A stretch of 64,000 bases of DNA from assembly GCF_024266585.1 (NCBI RefSeq), contig NZ_CP100647.1, positions 437,001 to 501,000 on the forward strand. Reading direction: 5' to 3'. The translations under genes and the position numbers were made by a program. This document shows positions 54,074-63,913 of the stretch, piece after piece. The stretch comes from Xanthomonas sacchari. Lineage in GTDB: Bacteria; Pseudomonadota; Gammaproteobacteria; Xanthomonadales; Xanthomonadaceae. Numbering within the stretch: the first letter of the stretch is position 1; each line of letters starts with the position of its first letter. The notes beneath the pieces were generated by a model. That model was not told where the DNA came from, made no database searches, and worked only from the letters and a program-made list of their open reading frames with translations.

Positions 54074-54099
54074 GTAGGCGCGGCTGAAGCCGCTCCTAC
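54074..54099. repeat. Short REP-like palindrome (variant)
   Basis: GTAGGCGCGGCT-GA-AGCCGCTCCTAC, the same palindrome as at 52244 with one mismatch in the left arm (C for A). It stands 20 bases ahead of the tandem REP array. Confidence 0.75.
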
Positions 54100-54119
54100 G
54101 GTGCATGGGTCGGAAGCGT

Positions 54120-54656
54120 TGTGGGAGGGACTTCAGTCCCGATGCGGGAAGGTGCCAGGTGGTTTTGGGCTTCACTCGTCGCGGTTGAAGCCGCTCCCAC
54201 AAGTGTGGCGTCAGTATTGCCGGAAGACTGCACTGTGTGAGGGACTTCAGTCCGACGCAGGAAGGGCCTGGTGGCTTTGAGCTTCACTCGTCGCGGCTGA
54301 AGCCGCTCCCACAAGTGCGGCGCACAGTATTGCCGGGAGACTGCACTGTGTGAGGGACTTCAGTCCGACACAGGAAGGTGCCGAGTGGCTTTGAGCTTCA
54401 CTCGTTGCGGCTGAAGCCGCTCCCACAAGTGTGGCGCACAGTATTGCCGGAAGACTGCACTGTGTGAGGGACTTCAGTCCGACGCAGGAAGGGCCTGGTG
54501 GCTTTGAGCTTCACTCGTCGCGGCTGAAGCCGCTCCCACAAGTGCGGCGCCAGCATCGCTGGAAGACCGCACTGTGGGAGGGACTTCAGTCCCGACGACG
54601 GGCGGTATCAGCCGACCATTCGCTTTCGCTCGTCGCGGCTGACGCCGCTCCCACAT
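54120..54656. repeat. Tandem array of about five ~113-bp REP-like units
   Basis: Units start at 54120, 54234, 54347, 54461 and 54573, so periods are 112-114 bases. Each opens with a variant of GTGGGAGGGACTTCAGTCC and ends with GCGGCTGAAGCCGCTCCCAC, which are inverted at their tips (GTGGGAG/CTCCCAC). Middle units share GGTGGCTTTGAGCTTCACTC. Units differ by point changes and by GTGTGAG replacing GTGGGAG. The array fills the gap between convergent genes. Confidence 0.9.
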
Positions 54657-54676: not shown

Positions 54677-57600
54677 CTACAGCGCGCTGCCGCCGAACTT
54701 CTGCGTGTACTGCAGGTACACGCTGCGGCCCACGGTGTCGAACCAGGACACGTCGTAGTACGGGTACGACGTGTAGGTGCGGTCGTGCGGCGGCATCGTG
54801 TCGAACAGGTTGGTCACCGTCAGCGACAGCTGCGCGTGGTCGGTAAAGCGGTACTGCAGCGACGCGTTGTAGCGGTAGGTGGCGCCGATCCATGGGCTGT
54901 CGCCGCTCGCCGGGTCGTAGACCTGGTCGTAGGAGTCCGAGCTCGGCAGCCGGCCAAGGCGCTCGCCGTGCAGCGTCGCGGTCCAGGCGTTGCGCTCCCA
55001 CGACACGCTGGCGCTGGCCTTGGTGCGCGGGATGTCGTAGCCGCTGTTGACCGCGAACTCGTCCACCATCGCTTCGCCGGCGTACACCTGGATGTCGTGG
55101 CGGCGCACCCAGGTGTAGTTGCCGCTCAGGCGGAAGGTGCCGATGCCGGTGTCGAGACGGTACTGCGCACTCAGGTCGATGCCGTTGGTGCGTTCGCGGG
55201 CGATGTTGATCGGGTTGACGTAGACCCCGTACAGGCGGCCGTCGGCGCTGCGGGTGACCCGCGCCAGCGCCTGCCGGCAGGTGGTGGAAGTCGCCTGCAG
55301 CACGCCGAGGCGGCAGTCGGCCTCGTCGCGCAGCACCTGGTCCACGCGCAGGTCCTGCACCTGATCGCGCATGTCGATGTTGAAGTAGTCCAGCGACAGG
55401 TCCAGGTCGGCGATTGGCGACCACACCAGGCCGGCGGTCCACGAGGTGCTGTTCTCCGGGTTCAGCGCGCGGTTGCCGCTGCGGCCGCGGATCACCGCTT
55501 CCTCGTTGTAGCTGCAGTCCTGGATCGCCACGCCCGGTTCCTCGCTGGCGCAGCGGTAGTAGTCCACGCCGGTGGTCTCGTCGTTGCCCGGGCCGGCGTA
55601 CACGTAGTGCAGGTCGGGCGCGCGGAACGCGGTGCCGTAGGAGCCGCGTACCAGCAGCGACTCCACCGGCCGCCACTCCAGCCCGCCGCTGTAGGTGAAC
55701 TTGCCCAGCGAGCGCCCGGCGAAACGGTACTGGTCGTAGCGCCCGGCCAGGCTCAGCGACACCGTCGACAGTACCGGCAGGCGCAGCTCGCTGGCCAGCG
55801 CCCAGCGGTTGCGGCTGCCGTGCCCGTCGGAATCCTTCCAACTGTAGTAGTAGTACTGCGTGGCCAGCGGATCCGGGCGCAGGGCGTAGCCCTGGTTGCC
55901 GAACTCGGCGGTTGCGGACAGGCCGGCATCGCCGCCGGGCAGCGCGAACAGCGCGGTGTTGGTGGCGGTGAAGGCGAGGGTGTCGGTGCGCGAGCGCGGT
56001 TGGTACACGGTGCGCTGGGCGATGCTGTCGTATTCGGCGCGGCTAAGCGGCGTGTACAGGCGCTGCGGGTCGGCGTCGAAGATCGGCAGCCCCGAGTCGT
56101 TGTCCACGCCCAGCTGTGGGCCGAGGAACAGCGCGTTGGCGCGGGCGGCGACGATCTGCGGCCAGCTGATCGTGGCCTGGTACTGCGAGTGGCTGAGGCT
56201 GGCCTCGTAGTCCCAGTCCGCACCCAGGCGGCCCTTGAAGCCGGTGGTGACGCTGAAGGTCTTCTGCCGGGTGCGGATGGTGCCGGCGTTGAGGCCGCCC
56301 ATTTCCTCCGGGCTGAACTGGCGGCCCCAGGCTTCCACCTGGCCGGTGGCCTGGTTGTAGAAGTAGCCCTGCTCGTTGCCGTCCGGGGCCATGTAGCCCC
56401 ACTGGGTCACGTCGCGGAACAGCGACAGCTCGTGGTAGCCCAGTTGCACGTCGGCGAACCACTCGCTGCCGTTGTCGAAGGCGTAGCGCAGCGAGGCGTA
56501 GCCGTTGAGGCCGCGGCGCTTGTTGGTGATGGTGCCGTAGCCGATCGAGGCGCTGCTGCCGCAGAACGCGCCGTAGCCCGGGCGCGTGGCGTAACCGGTG
56601 CTGCCGCCGTTGAGCGCGGACACCGCCGCGCAGGTGTCCGCGCCCGGATCCAGATAGTTGTCGTCGTAGTCCGTGCGCAGGAAGGTGCGCCGCGGCACCT
56701 GCGCGCGCGCGGTGGGACCGTCCAGGGTGCTGTCCTGGCGGCTGCGCTGGTAGGCCCACAGCGGCGTCTGTGACACCAGCTCGGCGCCGAACACCGCATC
56801 GAAGTTGCCGCGCGACCAGCCGCTGCTGAGGCTGAGGTTGAAGCTTTCGCCGCCGCCGCGGGTGGTGTCGCCGAAGCGGTAGTCCAGCGTGGTGCCGTCG
56901 GCCTGCTTCTTGAGGATGAAGTTGACCACGCCGGAGATCGCGTCCGAGCCGTAGATCGCCGAGGCGCTGCCGGTCAGGATCTCGATGCGGTCGATCATGC
57001 CCAGCGGGATGTTGGAAATGTCGGTGAAGTTACTGCGGCCCTTGAACGGCATCGGGAAGTCGGCGATGCGGCGGCCGTTGACCAGCACCAGGGTGTGGTT
57101 GGGACCGAGCCCGCGCAGGTCCACCTGCTGCGCGCCGGGCGAGAAGTCCGCACCGTTGGCCGACTGCGGGCTCTGCGTCTCGCCGCCGTTCTGGGTCATC
57201 GCGCGCAGCACGTCCGGCACCGAGGTGAAGCCGTTGGCCTTGATCTGCTCGGCGCTGATCACGCTGATCGGTGCGGGACCTTCCACCTGCGTGCGCGGAA
57301 TGCGCGAACCGGTGACGCGCAGGGTGTCCAGTTGCGCTACGGGGGCGTCGGCCGCCGCCGGCGGTGGCGCGGCGACACGGGCCGGTTGTGCGCGGGCCGG
57401 GGCCGGTTCCTGGCGCCGCACCAGCCACGCGCCGGAGGCGTCGCGCTGGGCGACGAAGCCGCTGCCGCGCAGCACCTGCTGCAGCGCCTGCGCCGTGTCC
57501 AACTGGCCGTGTGCGCCGCCGCTGCGGGCCTCGCCCATCTGGTCGGCGCGATAGATCAGCTGCGCGCCGGATTGCCGCGCCAAGGCGGCCAGCGCCGCAC

Positions 57601-57721
57601 GCAGCGGGCCGGCGGGGACATCCACCGTGCCGGTGGCGGCCACGGCAACGGGTTGTGCCTGCGCCGCACAGGCGCTCGCACAGGCCATGCTCAGCAGCAG
57701 GGCACGCATCGGATACCGCAT
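54677..57721 (-). CDS. TonB-dependent outer-membrane receptor with STN signalling domain
   Basis: A 1014-residue receptor. After a signal peptide come an STN domain (about 30-95: VDVPAGPLRAALAALARQSG, ALQQVLRGSGFVA), a Pro/Ala linker, a plug (ITGSRI-like LRVTGSRIPRTQ, IKANGFTSVPDVL, IYGSDAISGVVNF) and a 22-strand barrel ending QYTQKFGGSAL. The STN domain passes a signal to FecR-type anti-sigma regulators, and fecR plus an ECF sigma gene lie just upstream on the same strand. GGGGGAG is placed 9 bases before the ATG. The substrate cannot be read; neighbours suggest peptides. Confidence 0.93.
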   Translation of the reverse strand: MRYPMRALLLSMACASACAAQAQPVAVAATGTVDVPAGPLRAALAALARQSGAQLIYRADQMGEARSGGAHGQLDTAQALQQVLRGSGFVAQRDASGAWLVRRQEPAPARAQPARVAAPPPAAADAPVAQLDTLRVTGSRIPRTQVEGPAPISVISAEQIKANGFTSVPDVLRAMTQNGGETQSPQSANGADFSPGAQQVDLRGLGPNHTLVLVNGRRIADFPMPFKGRSNFTDISNIPLGMIDRIEILTGSASAIYGSDAISGVVNFILKKQADGTTLDYRFGDTTRGGGESFNLSLSSGWSRGNFDAVFGAELVSQTPLWAYQRSRQDSTLDGPTARAQVPRRTFLRTDYDDNYLDPGADTCAAVSALNGGSTGYATRPGYGAFCGSSASIGYGTITNKRRGLNGYASLRYAFDNGSEWFADVQLGYHELSLFRDVTQWGYMAPDGNEQGYFYNQATGQVEAWGRQFSPEEMGGLNAGTIRTRQKTFSVTTGFKGRLGADWDYEASLSHSQYQATISWPQIVAARANALFLGPQLGVDNDSGLPIFDADPQRLYTPLSRAEYDSIAQRTVYQPRSRTDTLAFTATNTALFALPGGDAGLSATAEFGNQGYALRPDPLATQYYYYSWKDSDGHGSRNRWALASELRLPVLSTVSLSLAGRYDQYRFAGRSLGKFTYSGGLEWRPVESLLVRGSYGTAFRAPDLHYVYAGPGNDETTGVDYYRCASEEPGVAIQDCSYNEEAVIRGRSGNRALNPENSTSWTAGLVWSPIADLDLSLDYFNIDMRDQVQDLRVDQVLRDEADCRLGVLQATSTTCRQALARVTRSADGRLYGVYVNPINIARERTNGIDLSAQYRLDTGIGTFRLSGNYTWVRRHDIQVYAGEAMVDEFAVNSGYDIPRTKASASVSWERNAWTATLHGERLGRLPSSDSYDQVYDPASGDSPWIGATYRYNASLQYRFTDHAQLSLTVTNLFDTMPPHDRTYTSYPYYDVSWFDTVGRSVYLQYTQKFGGSAL

Positions 57722-57824
57722 CGAGTTTTCTCCCCCAAACAGGCGCGCAGCGCGCCTTCGTAGCTCCAGGACGAACGAGACCGGCAAATCCCCCCGCCAC
57801 CGCGCCCGCCCGGCGCGCGGCGGC

Positions 57825-58859
57825 TTACCGGCTGTGCAACAGCACCGTGTCGCCGCGGCGCTCGGCGCGGATCGGGAAGCCCTGCTCGAGCAGGCGCACG
57901 AAGGCGTCGACGTTGGACCAGCGCACGTTGCCGCCGACCCGCAGCGCCGCGGCGCCGGCATCGGCGACCTGCAGCTTGACCGTGTTGTAGCGGTTGAACT
58001 CGGCCACCGCCGCCTGCAGTGGGGTGTCGTCGAAACTCAGGTAGCCGCTGCGCCAGTCCAGCATGCGCTCCGCCTCGGCCAGCGCGACCCGGCGCACCAG
58101 CACCCCGTGCGGGCCGGCCTGGGCGATGCTGCCGGCGTGCAGCAGCAGCGGCGGCGCCTGCGGCGCGCCGGCCGATTCCAGCCGCACCGTGCCCTCGGTG
58201 ACCACCACGCGCAGCGCATCGGCGTCGCGGCGCACCGCGAAGCGCGTGCCCACCGCCACCACCTGGCGCGCGCCGCTGGCGACCACGAACGGCCGACCCG
58301 GGTCCTTGCTCACCGCGAAGAACGCCTCGCCGCGCTGCAGGTCGATGTGCCGCTGCGCGCGCGACAGCGCCACCGCGATGCGGCTGTCGCTGCTCAGCGT
58401 GGCCTGCGAGCCGTCGGCCAGGGCCACCGGGCGCAGTTGGCCGGTGACGCTGGCGTAGGCGGTCGGCGCCGGTTCGGCGGCATGCCGCCCGCCCAGGGCC
58501 AGGACCGCGGCGCAGAGCAACGCCGCCGCCAGCGCGGCCGGCCAGCGCCGCCGCGGCCGCGCGCGTGGCCGCGGGCCAAGGTCCGGTGCGGCAGTCGCGG
58601 CCGGCGCCACCGCGCTGCGGCCGCCCAGGCCCTGCCAGCGGCCGCGTTCGGGCACCTGCCCATCGCGCTGGCCCGCGCCCAGCGCCTGCAGGCGCCCGCT
58701 CTCCTGCCAGGCGGCCTGCAGGCGCAGGAACGCCACCCGGTGCGCGGTGGATGCGGCCAGCCAGGCATCCAGGCGCGCCTGCCGTGCGTCGGTCCAGTCG
58801 CCGCGGTCGCGCCGCGCCAGCCAGGCCGCCGCACGCGCCTCAATCCACCTGCTGTCCAT
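57825..58859 (-). CDS. FecR-family anti-sigma regulator
   Basis: A 344-residue FecR protein. The N-terminal DUF4880-like cytoplasmic part (AAAWLARRDRGDWTDARQAR, DAWLAASTAHRVAFLRLQAA) is followed by one membrane segment (about residues 108-125), the periplasmic FecR domain (ALADGSQATLSSDSRIAVAL, RGEAFFAVSKDPGRPFVVAS, AVGTRFAVRRD) and a final STN-like half (SFDDTPLQAAVAEFNRYNTV). It would hold and activate the sigma factor encoded 19 bases into its own start. It lies between the sigma and receptor genes. Confidence 0.92.
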   Translation of the reverse strand: MDSRWIEARAAAWLARRDRGDWTDARQARLDAWLAASTAHRVAFLRLQAAWQESGRLQALGAGQRDGQVPERGRWQGLGGRSAVAPAATAAPDLGPRPRARPRRRWPAALAAALLCAAVLALGGRHAAEPAPTAYASVTGQLRPVALADGSQATLSSDSRIAVALSRAQRHIDLQRGEAFFAVSKDPGRPFVVASGARQVVAVGTRFAVRRDADALRVVVTEGTVRLESAGAPQAPPLLLHAGSIAQAGPHGVLVRRVALAEAERMLDWRSGYLSFDDTPLQAAVAEFNRYNTVKLQVADAGAAALRVGGNVRWSNVDAFVRLLEQGFPIRAERRGDTVLLHSR

Positions 58860-59412
58860 CGCGTGCCCGCGCCTGCAACGGCGTCGCCGGCGCCGCCGCG
58901 CCCTCGTCGTCATGAAGATGATCGGCCAGCAGGCGCATGCCCCGGGCCACTTGCTTTTCCACGCTCTTCTCGCTGATTCCCAGGCGCACGGCCACCTCCT
59001 TCTGCGGCAGTTCCTCGACCCGCCGCAGCCAGACCACGCTGCGGCAGCGGTCCGGCAACCGGTCGAAGGCCGCCGCCAGCCGGCCCAGCACCTGCCGTCC
59101 GCCGCACCAGCGTTCCGGCGACAGCTCATCTACCAGGACGTGCATCGACTCCAGATCCCCCACCGCCTCGATCGACACCACCCGGTTGCGGCGCAGCCGG
59201 TCGGTCATCAGGTGCCGCGCGGTGGCGAACAGGAACGCCTTGGGCTGGCTCGGCCGCGCCTTGCCGGCGGCCTCGTAGACGCGCACGTAGACTTCCTGGC
59301 GCAGGTCGTGCCATTCCTCGCGATGCGGCCAGCAGCGCCGCAGGTAGCCGCCGAGCGCCTGCTCGTGGACGAGGATTTCTTGGACGAACCAATCGTCGAG
59401 GGAAGCGGACAT
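58840..59412 (-). CDS. ECF sigma factor (FecI-like)
   Basis: A 190-residue extracytoplasmic-function sigma factor. Region 2 reads LRQEVYVRVYEAAGKAR and PKAFLFATARHLMTDRLRRN; region 4 reads LPDRCRSVVWLRRVEELPQK and VAVRLGISEKSVEKQVARGM. Its end overlaps the fecR start by 20 bases, and the TonB receptor gene follows, the standard fecI-fecR-receptor trio. It should direct the polymerase to the receptor promoter when FecR reports substrate binding. It diverges from the cyanophycinase fusion gene across ~156 bases. Confidence 0.92.
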   Translation of the reverse strand: MSASLDDWFVQEILVHEQALGGYLRRCWPHREEWHDLRQEVYVRVYEAAGKARPSQPKAFLFATARHLMTDRLRRNRVVSIEAVGDLESMHVLVDELSPERWCGGRQVLGRLAAAFDRLPDRCRSVVWLRRVEELPQKEVAVRLGISEKSVEKQVARGMRLLADHLHDDEGAAAPATPLQARARDGQQVD

Positions 59413-59568
59413 GGATTCCACATTAGCCGATCGCCGGCGCGTGCGGGCACGTGCCGCGTCCGCGAACGTGGGAGGGTGGCGCGGCGGGGGGAAACCGTGC
59501 CGCCGTTCGTCCCCAGTCTGCAACGAGCCGCGCGCTCGCCTGCCCGCCCGTTTCCCGAGGAGATCCGC

Positions 59569-61515
59569 ATGACCCGTTCCGTCGGCATGTTCCGGCCCTG
59601 GATGTCGCTGCTGCTGGGCCTGTGCCTGGCCACGCCCGCCGTGGCGCGCGATTACCGCCAGTACCTGGTCGGCGATCCGGCCGCGCCCACGCCCGGTCCG
59701 GTGTCGCCCGGCCTGCTGCTGATGGGCGGCGGCGACCGCAACTACGACGCGCTGCGCTGGTTCATGGCCAAGGCCGGGCACGGCCACGTGGTGGTGCTGC
59801 GCGCCTCGCAGGCGGGCGAGGTGGGCGAGGAGTTCTACCGCCAGGTCGGCGGCGTGGCCTCGGTGGAGACCTTCGTGTTCAGCGGCCGCGGCGCCTCCAG
59901 CGATCCGGCGCTGCTGCGCGCGCTGGCCCGCGCCGACGGCATCTTCATCGCCGGCGGCGACCAGTCGCGCTACGTGCGCTACTGGAAGGACACCCCGGTG
60001 GCCGAGGCGCTGGACGCGCACGTGCGCGCCGGCAAGCCGCTGGGCGGCACCAGCGCCGGCCTGGCGATGCTGGGCGAGTACCTGTACGGGGCGATGGACG
60101 GCGGCAGCCTCACCAGCCCGGCGGCGCTGGCCGACCCGCTGGGGCCGGCGGTCACTATCGAGACCGACTTCCTGCACCTGGACCTGCTCAAGCGGGTCAT
60201 CACCGACACCCACTTCCGCGAGCGCGACCGCCTCGGCCGCCTGTTCGCGTTCCGCGCCAAGGCGGCCACGCTGGCGCCCAAGGGCGCGCCGCTGATCGGC
60301 CTGGGCGTGGACGAGAGTGCGGCGCTGGCGGTGGAAGGCGACGGCAGCGCGCGGGTCTACGCCACCGATCCGCAGGCCATGGCCACCGTGGTCGCCGGGC
60401 CGCTGACGCCGCCCACCCCGGCCGGGCAGCCGCTGCAGGCCGCCCGCATCGAGACCGTCGGCGTCGGCCCCGGCTCGACCCTGCACCTGCCCGACGGTCG
60501 CGTCGAGGCGCCGGTGTTCCACCGCTACTATGCGGTGCAGGACGGGCGCCTGCGCGAGATCCCGGCCACCACGCTGGTGATCCATGGCGGCGCCGGCGTC
60601 GAGCGCGCCAGCAGCAGCGCCGCCGACCTGGCCGAGGCGCGCGCGGCGATGGAGACCGCGCTGCGCACCGGGCAGGCGCTGCTGGCGCAGGGCAAGCCGG
60701 CGACGGACGCGGTCGCCGCGGCGATCACCGTGCTGGAGGACTCGCCGCAGTTCAACGCCGGCAAGGGCGCGGTGTTCACCCACGACGGCCGCAACGAACT
60801 GGATGCGGCGATCATGGACGGCCGCACCGGCAAGGCCGGCGCGGTGGCCGGCGTGCACCGGGTGAAGAACCCGATCCAGCTGGCGCGTGCGGTGATGGAC
60901 CAGTCCGAGCACGTGATGCTGGTCGGCGACGGCGCCGAGGTCTTCGCAAAGCAGCACGGGATCGCCCTGGTCGATCCGTCGTACTTCCGCACCGAGAAGC
61001 GTTGGCAGCAACTGCAGCAGGCATTGAAGGAAGAGGCCAACAAGCAGGCGCACGCCGACCTGGAAACCGCCAAGCACTTCGGCACGGTCGGCGCGCTGGC
61101 GCTGGACCAGCAGGGCAACCTGGCCGCCGGCACCTCCACCGGCGGCATGACCAACAAGCGCTACGGCCGCGTCGGCGACTCGCCGATCATCGGTGCCGGC
61201 ACCTTCGCCGACAGCCGCTGCGCGGTGTCCGGCACCGGCTGGGGCGAGTTCTACATCCGCGCGGTGGCCGCCTACGACATCTGCGCGCGGGTGAAGTACG
61301 CCGGGCAGAGCCTGGCCCAGGCCGCCGACGCGGTGATCGACCGGCAGATCCCCAAGGCCGGCGGCGACGGCGGCGCGATCGCGCTGGGCGCCGACGGCAG
61401 CGTCGCCTTCCCGTTCAACACCGAAGGCATGTACCGCGGCTGGATCGGCGCCGACGGCGTGCCGCACGTGGCCATCTTCAAGGACGAGGCGTTGCCGCTG
61501 CCCGGCGGGCAGTGA
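59569..61515 (+). CDS. Exported cyanophycinase / isoaspartyl-peptidase (Ntn) fusion
   Basis: A 648-residue protein joining two enzymes. After a signal peptide (cleaved near AVARD, residue ~27), residues ~45-325 match cyanophycinase (S51): LLMGGGDRNYDALRWFM, IFIAGGDQSRYVRYW and nucleophile GGTSAGLAM (Ser162). Residues ~334-640 match type-2 asparaginase/isoaspartyl peptidase: VIHGGAG, FNAGKGAVF, ELDAAIMDG and GTVGALALD with the autocleavage Thr506, then STGG and GRVGDSPIIGAGTFAD. Together the two would cut multi-Asp-Arg polymer to beta-Asp-Arg and on to Asp and Arg. GAGGAG precedes the ATG at 59569. Divergent from the sigma/receptor trio. Confidence 0.93.
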   Translation: MTRSVGMFRPWMSLLLGLCLATPAVARDYRQYLVGDPAAPTPGPVSPGLLLMGGGDRNYDALRWFMAKAGHGHVVVLRASQAGEVGEEFYRQVGGVASVETFVFSGRGASSDPALLRALARADGIFIAGGDQSRYVRYWKDTPVAEALDAHVRAGKPLGGTSAGLAMLGEYLYGAMDGGSLTSPAALADPLGPAVTIETDFLHLDLLKRVITDTHFRERDRLGRLFAFRAKAATLAPKGAPLIGLGVDESAALAVEGDGSARVYATDPQAMATVVAGPLTPPTPAGQPLQAARIETVGVGPGSTLHLPDGRVEAPVFHRYYAVQDGRLREIPATTLVIHGGAGVERASSSAADLAEARAAMETALRTGQALLAQGKPATDAVAAAITVLEDSPQFNAGKGAVFTHDGRNELDAAIMDGRTGKAGAVAGVHRVKNPIQLARAVMDQSEHVMLVGDGAEVFAKQHGIALVDPSYFRTEKRWQQLQQALKEEANKQAHADLETAKHFGTVGALALDQQGNLAAGTSTGGMTNKRYGRVGDSPIIGAGTFADSRCAVSGTGWGEFYIRAVAAYDICARVKYAGQSLAQAADAVIDRQIPKAGGDGGAIALGADGSVAFPFNTEGMYRGWIGADGVPHVAIFKDEALPLPGGQ

Positions 61516-61753
61516 GGGGGCGTTCCCCGGGGCCGCCGGCACCGCCCCGGGACGCACGATCGCCTTCGCAGGGCCGCCGCGCCGCCGTGTCCGCGGACGG
61601 GGCGGCGGCGGCCCGCGCAGGCCCGGCGCGCGACGATCTGTACGCCGGCTGGCTGGGCCGCCGGCCCGAGCCAATGGCACATGCCGCTGCCATGCAAACC
61701 CGGTAACGTGGACGGCTGTCCTGGCCCCAAGGTCCTCTCAGGAGTTCCACCTC

Positions 61754-63913
61754 ATGTCGCGTAACGTCGTTCTGGCCGCCGCCATCAGCCTGGCGCTGGC
61801 CGCCTGTTCCGGTAAGGAGTCCACCCCCGTGCCCGCCGCTCCCGCTGCCCCGGCCGCCGCGCAGCCCGCCGCCGCCGCCAACCCGCTGCTGACCCCCAGC
61901 CCGCTGCCGTTCCAGGCGCCGCCGTTCGACAAGATCAAGGACAGCGACTTCCTGCCGGCGTTCGAGGAGGGCATGAAGCAGCACCTGGCCGAGATCCGCA
62001 AGATCGCCGACAACCCGGAACCGGCCACCTTCGCCAACACCCTGGAAGCGATGGAGCGCAGCGGCGAGACCCTGACCCGCGTGTCGCGCATCTTCTTCGG
62101 CCTGGTCCAGGCCGACACCAACGAGGCCCGCCAGAAGATCCAGGAAGAGATCGCGCCCAAGCTGGCCGCGCACCAGGACGAGATCAGCCTGGATCCGAAA
62201 CTGTTCGCGCGCATCAAGAGCCTGTACGACCAGCGCGACACGCTGAACCTGGACCCGGAGCAGAAGCGCCTGGTCGAATACGAATACCAGGAGTTCGTGC
62301 GCGCCGGCGCGCAGCTGTCCGACGCCGACAAGGCCACCCTGCGCAAGCTCAACGTCGAAGAGACCACCCTGGCCACGCAGTTCCACACCAAGCTGGTCGC
62401 GGCCACCGCCGCCGGTGCCGTGGTGGTGGACGACAAGGCCAAGCTCGACGGCATGTCCGACGGCGACATCGCCTCGGCCGCGCAGGACGCCACCGCGCGC
62501 AAGCTCGACGGCAAATACCTGCTGGCCCTGCAGAACACCACCCAGCAGCCGGTGCTGGCCTCGCTGAAGGACCGCGACCTGCGCCTGCAGGTGATGGCTG
62601 CCTCGCAGTCGCGCGCCGAGAAGGGCGATGCCAACGACACCCGCCAGACCGTGCAGCGCCTGGCCCAGCTGCGCGCGCAGAAGGCCAAGCTGCTCGGCTT
62701 CGACAGCTACGCCGCCTACAGCCTGAGCGACCAGATGGCCAAGACCCCGGCCGCGGCGCTGAAGCTGCTCACCGACACCGTGCCCGCCGCCACCGCCAAG
62801 GCGCGCAGCGAGGCCGCGGAGATGCAGAAGGTGATCGACGCGCAGAAGGGCGGCTTCAAGCTCACCGCCGCCGATTGGGACTTCTACGCCGAGCAGGTGC
62901 GCAAGGCCAAGTACGACCTCGACGAAGCGCAGATCAAGCCGTACTTCGAGCTGGACAATGTGCTGCAGAACGGCGTCTTCTACGCCGCCAATCAGCTGTA
63001 CGGCATCACCTTCAAGGAACGCACCGACATCCCCACCTACCACGACGGGATGAAGGTCTATGAAGTGTTCGACAAGGACGGCAAGTCGCTGGCGCTGTTC
63101 TACACCGACTACTTCAAGCGCGACAGCAAGTCCGGCGGCGCCTGGATGGACGAGTTCGTGGGCCAGAACGGCCTGACCGGCACCAAGCCGGTGGTCTACA
63201 ACGTCTGCAACTTCACCAAGCCCGCCCCGGGCCAGCCGGCGTTGCTGAGCTTCGACGACGTCACCACCATGTTCCACGAGTTCGGCCATGCGCTGCACGG
63301 CATGTTCTCCAACGTGAAGTACCCGACTCTGGCCGGCACCGCCACCTCGCGCGACTTCGTCGAGTTCCCCTCGCAGTTCAACGAGCACTGGGCGTCGGAT
63401 CCGAAGGTGTTCGCGCACTACGCCAAGCACTACCAGACCGGCGAAGCGATGCCGGCCGACCTGGTGGAGAAGATCAAGAAGTCGCGTACCTTCAACCAGG
63501 GCTATGCCACCACCGAGTACCTGTCGGCGGCGCTGCTGGACCTGTCCTGGCACACCCTGCCGGCCGACGCGCCGTTGCAGGACGTGGACAAGTTCGAGAC
63601 CGACTCGCTGAAGAAGTACAAGGTGGACCTGGCCGACGTGCCGCCGCGCTACCGCACCACCTATTTCGACCACATCTGGGGCGGCGGCTACTCGGCCGGC
63701 TACTACGCCTACTTCTGGGCGGAAGTGCTCGACGACGACGCCTTCCAGTGGTTCAAGGAGCACGGCGGCCTGACCCGCGCCAACGGCGACATCTTCCGCG
63801 CCAAGATCCTCTCGCGCGGCAATACCGAAGACCTGGCCACCCTGTACCGCGACTTCCGCGGCAAGGACCCCAGCGTCGAGCCGCTGCTGGAAAACCGCGG
63901 CCTGACCAACTGA
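61754..63913 (+). CDS. dcp: M3-family dipeptidyl carboxypeptidase (Dcp), lipoprotein
   Basis: A 719-residue zinc metallopeptidase. The N-terminal signal ends LALAACSGK, a lipobox, so it is exported and membrane-tethered; a Pro/Ala linker follows. The zinc motif is HEFGH (His508-His512) with the later glutamate in SRDFVEFPSQF, and GYSAGYYAYFWAEVL near the end is typical of Dcp. It trims dipeptides from peptide C-termini. It is the last gene before the window edge and is followed by a strong terminator; it may belong with the cyanophycinase fusion upstream (238-base gap). Confidence 0.92.
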   Translation: MSRNVVLAAAISLALAACSGKESTPVPAAPAAPAAAQPAAAANPLLTPSPLPFQAPPFDKIKDSDFLPAFEEGMKQHLAEIRKIADNPEPATFANTLEAMERSGETLTRVSRIFFGLVQADTNEARQKIQEEIAPKLAAHQDEISLDPKLFARIKSLYDQRDTLNLDPEQKRLVEYEYQEFVRAGAQLSDADKATLRKLNVEETTLATQFHTKLVAATAAGAVVVDDKAKLDGMSDGDIASAAQDATARKLDGKYLLALQNTTQQPVLASLKDRDLRLQVMAASQSRAEKGDANDTRQTVQRLAQLRAQKAKLLGFDSYAAYSLSDQMAKTPAAALKLLTDTVPAATAKARSEAAEMQKVIDAQKGGFKLTAADWDFYAEQVRKAKYDLDEAQIKPYFELDNVLQNGVFYAANQLYGITFKERTDIPTYHDGMKVYEVFDKDGKSLALFYTDYFKRDSKSGGAWMDEFVGQNGLTGTKPVVYNVCNFTKPAPGQPALLSFDDVTTMFHEFGHALHGMFSNVKYPTLAGTATSRDFVEFPSQFNEHWASDPKVFAHYAKHYQTGEAMPADLVEKIKKSRTFNQGYATTEYLSAALLDLSWHTLPADAPLQDVDKFETDSLKKYKVDLADVPPRYRTTYFDHIWGGGYSAGYYAYFWAEVLDDDAFQWFKEHGGLTRANGDIFRAKILSRGNTEDLATLYRDFRGKDPSVEPLLENRGLTN

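Follow-up and report, generated by a model that had tools for sequence, protein, structure and literature searches.

The 64,000-nucleotide stretch of the Xanthomonas sacchari genome analyzed here (contig NZ_CP100647.1, positions 437,001 to 501,000; hereafter the window) probably carries, near its right-hand end, a locus for scavenging the polymer cyanophycin, equipped with its own switch of the FecI/FecR-like type and with TonB-type import, whichever of import and cleavage comes first. Three genes on the minus strand, encoding a FecI-type extracytoplasmic function (ECF) sigma factor, a FecR-type regulator, and a TonB-dependent receptor with an N-terminal STN domain, diverge from a plus-strand gene for an exported fusion of a peptidase S51 domain, resembling the cyanophycinase CphE, and an isoaspartyl peptidase domain of the IaaA type. 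Judging from sequence comparisons, the receptor and the cyanophycinase-like enzyme very probably work together. An earlier note on this DNA had placed such a unit at positions 58840–63913; that interval takes in the sigma factor, the fusion, and a downstream M3 peptidase gene, while the FecR and receptor genes lie to its left. All five genes it named were recovered in domain searches, and four of them are as follows:

58840–59412, minus strand: FecI-type ECF sigma factor, 190 aa (Sigma70_r2 and r4_2 over the Pfam cut-off)
57825–58859, minus strand: FecR-type transmembrane anti-sigma/sigma regulator, 344 aa (FecR at 67.1 bits and DUF4880 at 28.1 bits, over cut-off)
54677–57721, minus strand: TonB-dependent receptor, 1014 aa, with N-terminal STN domain, plug, and barrel (STN, Plug, and TonB_dep_Rec_b-barrel over the Pfam cut-off)
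59569–61515, plus strand: exported S51–IaaA fusion, 648 aa (Peptidase_S51 at 40.3 bits, cut-off 23.9; Asparaginase_2 at 377 bits, cut-off 27)

The sigma factor, FecR, and STN receptor genes stand in a row, as in a FecI/FecR/STN-receptor trio. The sigma factor passes the NCBIfam cut-off for the ECF superfamily and reaches none of the equivalog cut-offs in the 25 of 53 families listed, and FecR_C scores 20.6 bits on the FecR protein, under its cut-off of 24.4. The sigma and FecR genes share 20 bases with the start codons chosen here, and the window's genome has a single such sigma factor at E 1e-36.

The arrangement of these genes is conserved far beyond chance. Relatives came from a genome-collection scan (best 80 of 582 confirmed relatives, the window's proteins being mapped on 111 loci, numbered L), in which Xanthomonas sp. 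F10 and NCPPB 1128 are the nearest named relatives (fusion 96% identical), and from 198 genomes of the family (numbered G), which are related to each other, so that a Fisher test on their counts yields no true probability. Counting S51 matches at E 1e-70 or better (n = 65) and receptor matches of at least 828 bits (n = 69), 64 family genomes have both, 131 have neither, one has S51 only (G170), and two have the receptor only (G195 and G114, the latter with a fragment at a contig end). The receptor lies within 9 kb of S51 for 60 of the 65 S51 matches; the other five comprise a deletion in G170 (locus L089) and four genomes (G016, G026, G151, G180) in which S51 and receptor are on separate contigs. 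All 54 sigma-bearing family genomes have S51, and 11 S51 genomes have no sigma factor. Linkage of the fusion to the trio in relatives, as the earlier note proposed, is borne out: among the matches listed from the family genomes, 42 of the 44 full-length fusions have the sigma gene no more than 4 kb away. Fifty-nine sigma matches divide into 42 beside a fusion, 12 beside an IaaA gene, and five beside neither, three of the last being second copies in genomes of the same genus, each near a second receptor match, and the remaining two being at most 50% identical. No pairing was seen among the weaker S51 matches (15 checked) and the next receptor matches (11, ∼40% identical).

Across the Lysobacterales, either the fused gene or neighbouring S51 and IaaA genes (separate in six loci: L046, L047, L052, L067, L068, and L078) diverge from the sigma–FecR–receptor genes as far as the flanks reach. 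The locus is conserved across differing genomic surroundings, and the genes downstream of the fusion vary by genus. The exceptions carrying S51 are L004 and L089, in which the trio is deleted, and L017, with a receptor and neither sigma factor nor FecR. The deletions have left the last 41 receptor residues in place (L004, 8694–8816; L089, 3623–3745); the sigma gene, FecR gene, and most of the receptor gene are gone, and the fusion is kept together with the promoter motif before it.

This motif is the further evidence that ties the two sides of the locus together. The gap between the sigma and fusion genes holds one conserved stretch, GGGGGAA-N11-GTTCGTC, reading toward the fusion, and the motif GGGGA(A/T)-N11/12-TTCGTC occurs upstream of both the fusion and the receptor genes:

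57770–57793, minus strand: predicted ECF promoter of the receptor gene, GGGGATTTGCCGGTCTCGTTCGTC (motif match)
59488–59511, plus strand: predicted ECF promoter of the fusion gene, GGGGAAACCGTGCCGCCGTTCGTC (motif match)

The whole 4.89-Mb genome contains four exact matches to GGGGAWN{11,12}TTCGTC, two being these promoters and two lying inside long open frames, and it contains no match to the reversed motif used as a control. The motif was counted in 59 trio loci, with the window included and its duplicate L001 excluded; the receptor side is readable in 28. The first pattern matches upstream of 57 of 59 fusions and 27 of 28 receptors (50 and 24, respectively, with a stricter pattern), as compared with means of 0.24 and 0.17 in 100 dinucleotide shuffles. 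A widened pattern, set after the two misses had been seen and admitting either pyrimidine at the first and last positions of TTCGTC as well as wider spacing, is found before all 59 fusions (39 of 39 without near-copies) and again before 27 of 28 receptors (21 of 22). In a larger, redundant set of loci with both genes, 93 of 95 have the motif before the fusion. A search for it before both transcripts had been suggested in the earlier note as a check on its idea of a single unit for signalling, import, and degradation, and on linkage and shared motif alike that idea is well supported.

The motif largely tracks the presence of the sigma factor. Control counts were 1 of 18 for fusions of an alpha group of loci described below (L028), 0 of 16 for the receptors of that group, and 0 of 26 for loci with IaaA alone; further controls gave 1 of 59 upstream of the sigma gene itself (L087), 0 of 55 at the FecR start, and 0 of 32 before the M3 gene. 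It is absent on both sides of the four loci that have S51 and receptor without sigma factor (L017, L167, L168, L169). The motif survives before the fusion in the sigma-deleted loci L004 and L089, whose upstream sequences are identical. We consider it highly probable that the sigma factor drives the promoters of both the fusion and the receptor, and the pattern of matches and controls makes it likely that it drives neither itself nor the M3 gene. Second trios in two same-genus genomes (L145, 3125–8002; L146, 3201–8636; sigma factor 66% and receptor 58% identical) have the same motif before a different divergent open reading frame (ORF), so their sigma factor may share specificity with that of the window. 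The 150-aa product of the ORF in L146 matches no Pfam family and has an N-terminus of the export type. Separately, the sigma gene of G186 (L149, 3741–4311) matches in two frames and therefore may be broken.

The supposition that these are unrelated neighbours brought together by chance could appeal to the seven FecR matches in the window's genome and to the downstream genes that differ between genera. Conserved linkage, joint loss, and a shared promoter leave it a practically negligible probability, and linkage and motif together refute it.

The fifth gene, which the earlier note had counted as part of the unit, probably does not belong to its core:

61754–63913, plus strand: M3 peptidyl-dipeptidase Dcp, 719 aa, predicted lipoprotein (NCBIfam Dcp equivalog at 987.5 bits, cut-off 944)

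The gene lies downstream of the fusion in the same orientation, and the protein has a lipobox, LAAC, recognized by eye. In many Xanthomonas loci (among them those of X. hortorum, X. arboricola, and X. euvesicatoria), an export-type IaaA gene and Dcp are kept with no adjacent S51, sigma, or receptor match. Given this persistence and the motif missing before it, Dcp is probably outside the sigma regulon, and we rejected it as a core part. A scan of the interval between the fusion and M3 genes for sigma-70 promoters and terminators found neither, so that transcription may still read through into the M3 gene. Some Xanthomonas loci (L054, L061, L064) have two or three Dcp genes or pieces downstream of IaaA.

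The unit extends beyond the Xanthomonadaceae. In a set of 19 loci termed the alpha group, the fusion faces a receptor without sigma factor or FecR in 16, a further locus (L041) is on a short contig, and the last two (L026, L028; see below) showed no receptor in their flanks; the L042 receptor, the only one of the group that was scanned, lacks an STN domain. Downstream of the fusion and on its strand, 16 of the 19 loci have an Lrp/AsnC-like gene, with family membership confirmed for L042 only, where the gene is on the other strand. A gene for an SDF dicarboxylate/amino-acid symporter lies near three of these loci (L042, 10904–12178; L029, 11352–12656; L039, 336–1547); being present in 3 of 19 only, it was rejected as a regular partner. 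Bacteroidota loci have the order sigma–FecR–SusC–SusD–S51–IaaA in three of four cases (L075, L079, L082), with S51 and IaaA fused in L075 and an STN domain in the SusC of L082, the sole SusC scanned; the fourth (L081) has FecR, SusC, and SusD and no sigma match. A class-wide search found S51 in 8 of 229 genomes, counting that of the window. One of these (G213, of another family in the same class) encodes a lone S51 protein of 403 aa, with the eight invariant residues described below, facing a receptor 53% identical to that of the window. The sigma/FecR pair is thus a form of control seen in Lysobacterales and Bacteroidota, and the layouts, taken with the patterns of presence and absence, mark S51 and the receptor as a tied pair that IaaA usually accompanies.

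The substrate is probably cyanophycin or its fragments, an assignment supported by the active site of the enzyme. The fusion protein comprises a Sec-type signal peptide (∼residues 1–27, by eye), an S51/CphE-like domain (46–265), and an Asparaginase_2/IaaA domain of the N-terminal nucleophile (Ntn) type (335–640). All three solved-structure matches of the S51 half are cyanophycinases. Alignment to the CphB structures identifies Q132, S162, D213, T214, H215, R219, R221, R224, and E249. In the parts of the CphE report covered here (PMC3235067), Gln101, Asp172, Gln173, Arg178, Arg180, and Arg183 are given as critical in CphB beside Ser132, and CphE keeps these residues except that Thr replaces Gln173; the triad proposed for it is Ser171-His224-Glu251. 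All nine catalytic and pocket positions reported for CphE match in the S51 half. Eight of the nine are invariant in all 119 loci matching at more than 80 bits (a redundant set that includes the window's own copies), and the ninth position has Thr (97 loci), Ser (18), Gln (3), or Met (1). Distant S51 relatives, down to 22% identity, keep the same eight and have Gln, Ser, or Thr at the ninth. The beta-Asp-Arg polymer that the earlier note proposed as substrate is supported by the active-site residues, and we would treat the assignment itself as an inference.

In the IaaA half, T506, preceded by G505, aligns with the first residue of the processed beta chains in solved IaaA structures, and Thr occupies position 506 in all 114 rows that reach it, out of 130 loci:

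61084–61086, plus strand: codon for Thr506, the predicted autoproteolysis/catalytic residue of the IaaA domain (aligned at the start of the processed beta chain)

On this alignment, the predicted self-cleavage would leave the S51 domain joined to the alpha chain. The window's genome has no cyanophycin synthetase over the cut-off (best match 57.7 vs. 850 bits), as is expected of a scavenger; the weak matches look, by inference, like Mur-type ligases, and service to the cell's own cyanophycin was rejected for want of a synthetase over cut-off. The locus thus combines a CphE-like enzyme, an isoaspartyl peptidase, and a transporter with no cphA match over cut-off, the composition of a cyanophycin utilization locus.

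The same enzymes could instead handle other beta-linked (isoaspartyl) peptides, such as fragments of aged proteins or beta-Asp natural products, with S51 trimming them and IaaA finishing the cleavage. IaaA enzymes are described as promiscuous in the available text of PMC10206079, the exported IaaA persists with Dcp alone in many Xanthomonas loci, and the S51 score is under the cyanophycinase equivalog cut-off. The Arg/Gln/Asp pocket is nevertheless kept in 119 of 119 loci, with the Thr of CphE in the window, in a comparison that covered S51 relatives only and had no known non-cyanophycinase S51 as control. Additionally, no PepE structure matches the S51 half at E 0.01, and S51 and receptor are gained and lost together. 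We regard a general isoaspartyl role as unlikely. An aspartyl dipeptidase of the PepE kind was also considered, the PepE model giving a partial and weak match (residues 116–169 only, E 9e-4).

Several observations weigh against scavenging of cyanophycin by a dedicated unit. The S51 half scores 91.6 bits against a cut-off of 126.6 for the NCBIfam cyanophycinase model TIGR02069, for which reason we call it CphE-like rather than cyanophycinase by that model, and the IaaA half scores 327.8 bits against 567 for NF007589. Being kept in all S51 relatives checked, the eight invariant residues are a family signature and no proof of the substrate. Genome G195 encodes receptor and IaaA but gave no strong match for S51. 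Three same-genus genomes have a second such sigma factor and receptor away from any S51, and receptors of this family may thus not all be dedicated to cyanophycin. Two metagenome-assembled genomes labelled only as proteobacteria (L026, L028) carry the fusion, and no receptor was found in their flanks. The L016 receptor has no motif before it, even with the widened pattern, and L141 and L150 have none before S51, where near variants are visible. In L026, ornithine cyclodeaminase and arginase genes (250–2447) lie 6–9 kb upstream of the fusion.

As we envisage it, a soluble fragment of cyanophycin (an Asp backbone with Arg beta-amide-linked on each side chain) would bind the receptor, whose STN domain would signal through FecR and free the ECF sigma factor. 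The sigma factor would then start transcription at GGGGA(A/T)-N11/12-TTCGTC before the receptor and before the fusion, and fragments would enter the periplasm through the receptor. In that compartment, the S51 domain, with a predicted Ser162-His215-Glu249 triad, would release beta-Asp-Arg dipeptides, and the IaaA half, acting through Thr506 after predicted self-cleavage before this residue, would split them into Asp and Arg for uptake. We lean somewhat toward cleavage that is mainly periplasmic and follows import. A beta-Asp-Arg dipeptide is small enough for porins, and a TonB receptor would therefore be required only for larger fragments, which also counts against the proposed scheme. The reverse order, in which the fusion is secreted past the outer membrane and digests the polymer outside, the receptor importing or only sensing the products, is a variant of the same explanation, with which its odds overlap; we hold it possible, though the less favoured of the two. 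Whole cyanophycin is, on general knowledge, too large for a TonB channel, and the CphE of Pseudomonas is extracellular with a Sec signal, according to the portions of PMC3235067 covered. The end products of the fused enzyme, free Asp and Arg, would however need no TonB receptor, and no sign of secretion past the periplasm was noticed, although no test aimed at secretion was run.

FecI/FecR systems with STN receptors classically serve iron chelates, and the best solved-structure matches of the receptor, mainly across the plug, are colicin I, enterobactin, and B12 receptors. The receptor might accordingly import a peptide siderophore whose isopeptide bonds the enzymes cut to free iron. Annotation in the window covered the five locus genes and four ORFs at 51.7–54.0 kb (DUF2059, an RF-1 domain, an acyltransferase, and one without a match), the window ending 87 bases past the M3 gene. 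No iron gene was found among these nine, Fur boxes not having been searched for, and the earlier statement that no iron or carbohydrate gene is near holds for the same set. The Lrp/AsnC-like gene of the alpha-group loci and the SusC/SusD genes of the Bacteroidota loci also speak against an iron-type system, which we judge very improbable.

While the enzyme and the signalling parts remain constant, the receptor has apparently changed its outer part. In a receptor tree (quick method, with long branches flagged), S51-adjacent receptors form one clade with Shimodaira–Hasegawa-like approximate likelihood ratio test (SH-aLRT) support of 98, holding 33 Lysobacterales and 16 alphaproteobacterial S51-linked receptors and two second-trio receptors; the six best-scoring receptor paralogues of the window's genome fall outside. 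Two Pseudoxanthomonas loci, L008 (3919–6562) and L065, have nearly identical fusions and receptor plug/barrel DNA only 58–74% identical, against 81–100% in the STN region, FecR, sigma factor, and fusion (250-base windows). Loci L007 and L014, which share a receptor type, have no drop in identity across the receptor. When mapped on a fusion tree (24 sequences), the second receptor type (a grouping taken from the receptor tree) requires five changes, of which at least four are forced by well-supported branches, as compared with a mean of 7.9 for shuffled labels. These patterns suggest exchange of the ligand-binding part as a cassette, with the signalling part kept. Substrate variants or pressure from phages or bacteriocins may be the cause. 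Just downstream of the receptor gene lie six copies of a palindromic repeat resembling repetitive extragenic palindromic (REP) elements (core GGAGCGGCTTCAGCCGCGAC; 54077–54651; spacing ∼101–115 bases), which has 11 matches in the window at up to 3 mismatches, as against 0.06 expected.

It seems slightly the better supposition that a TonB/ECF-sigma system for cyanophycin, with a co-regulated bifunctional enzyme, is standard in many Lysobacterales, the plug and barrel being exchanged as a cassette and STN domain, FecR, sigma factor, and enzyme staying. For TonB receptors not involved in iron, B12, or glycan uptake, a substrate prediction firm enough to be put to the test is, to our knowledge, rare; the present receptor, enzyme, regulator, and promoter all point to one compound. 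If this is correct, the locus exemplifies bacterial scavenging of a nitrogen-storage polymer released when cyanobacteria or other makers die, offers a way to turn cyanophycin into Asp and Arg with one enzyme, and illustrates clearly how a receptor can alter its outer part and retain the domain through which it signals. It would also imply that plant-associated and soil Lysobacterales commonly meet extracellular cyanophycin.

Citromicrobium is an alphaproteobacterium, and the alphaproteobacterial relatives in the present set, with S51–IaaA divergent from a receptor, may be compared with it. In Citromicrobium sp. JLT1363, a TonB receptor near a cyanophycinase gene was described in 2012 with cyanophycin proposed as its substrate, the same idea as here; the passages covered mention neither FecI nor a sigma factor, and neither a fusion nor a promoter (PMC3400609). 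Cyanophycinase genes cluster with iaaA or iadA in genomes without cphA1, and the cyanophycin utilization locus of Ben Hania et al. (as cited in PMC10206079) likewise brings together a cyanophycinase, an isoaspartyl dipeptidase, and a transporter for scavenging, as far as the text covered describes it. The claim in the earlier note that no described system has this layout was, on these two precedents, too strong. The window differs from such loci in its single exported two-domain enzyme, its STN-bearing TonB transporter, and the apparent ECF sigma/FecR control of both sides; in the main text of PMC10206079, as far as covered, TonB, fusion or fused, and Xanthomon- are not mentioned. The CphE of Pseudomonas alcaligenes DIP1 shares with the S51 half the Sec signal, the Ser-His-Glu triad, the Gln/Asp/Arg/Arg/Arg pocket, and Thr in place of the CphB Gln173, and differs as a stand-alone enzyme of 43.6 kDa (mature) rather than a domain fused to an isoaspartyl peptidase (PMC3235067, in the parts covered). 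The cphA–cphB pair of Lysobacter capsici is different from the present locus (PMC4742617, in part), and no locus of this kind appears in the portions covered of PMC7564069, PMC12661447, and PMC11573002.

The regulatory half resembles the FecIRA ferric citrate system in its ECF sigma factor, FecR, and STN receptor and in having the motif before the receptor and none before the sigma gene; fecI, too, is not known to drive itself. It differs in a second target promoter, before a divergent degradative enzyme, and in a presumed ligand that is a peptide polymer rather than an iron chelate. Some lasso-peptide clusters combine FecI/FecR, a TonB receptor, and an isopeptidase for an Asp/Glu isopeptide, i.e., a similar signalling trio plus peptidase, and their isopeptidases are prolyl-oligopeptidase-like. 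A cluster of this type was considered here; the five locus proteins have no prolyl-oligopeptidase-type Pfam domain, with precursor and cyclase genes not searched for; a literature search combining the terms of such clusters found no paper. Neither the fused enzyme nor the sigma/FecR control was found in a literature search by title and abstract opening, which left subscription journals mostly outside. Relative to these known systems, what is apparently new in the present locus is the fused exported enzyme, its FecIR-type control, and the swapping of receptor barrels.

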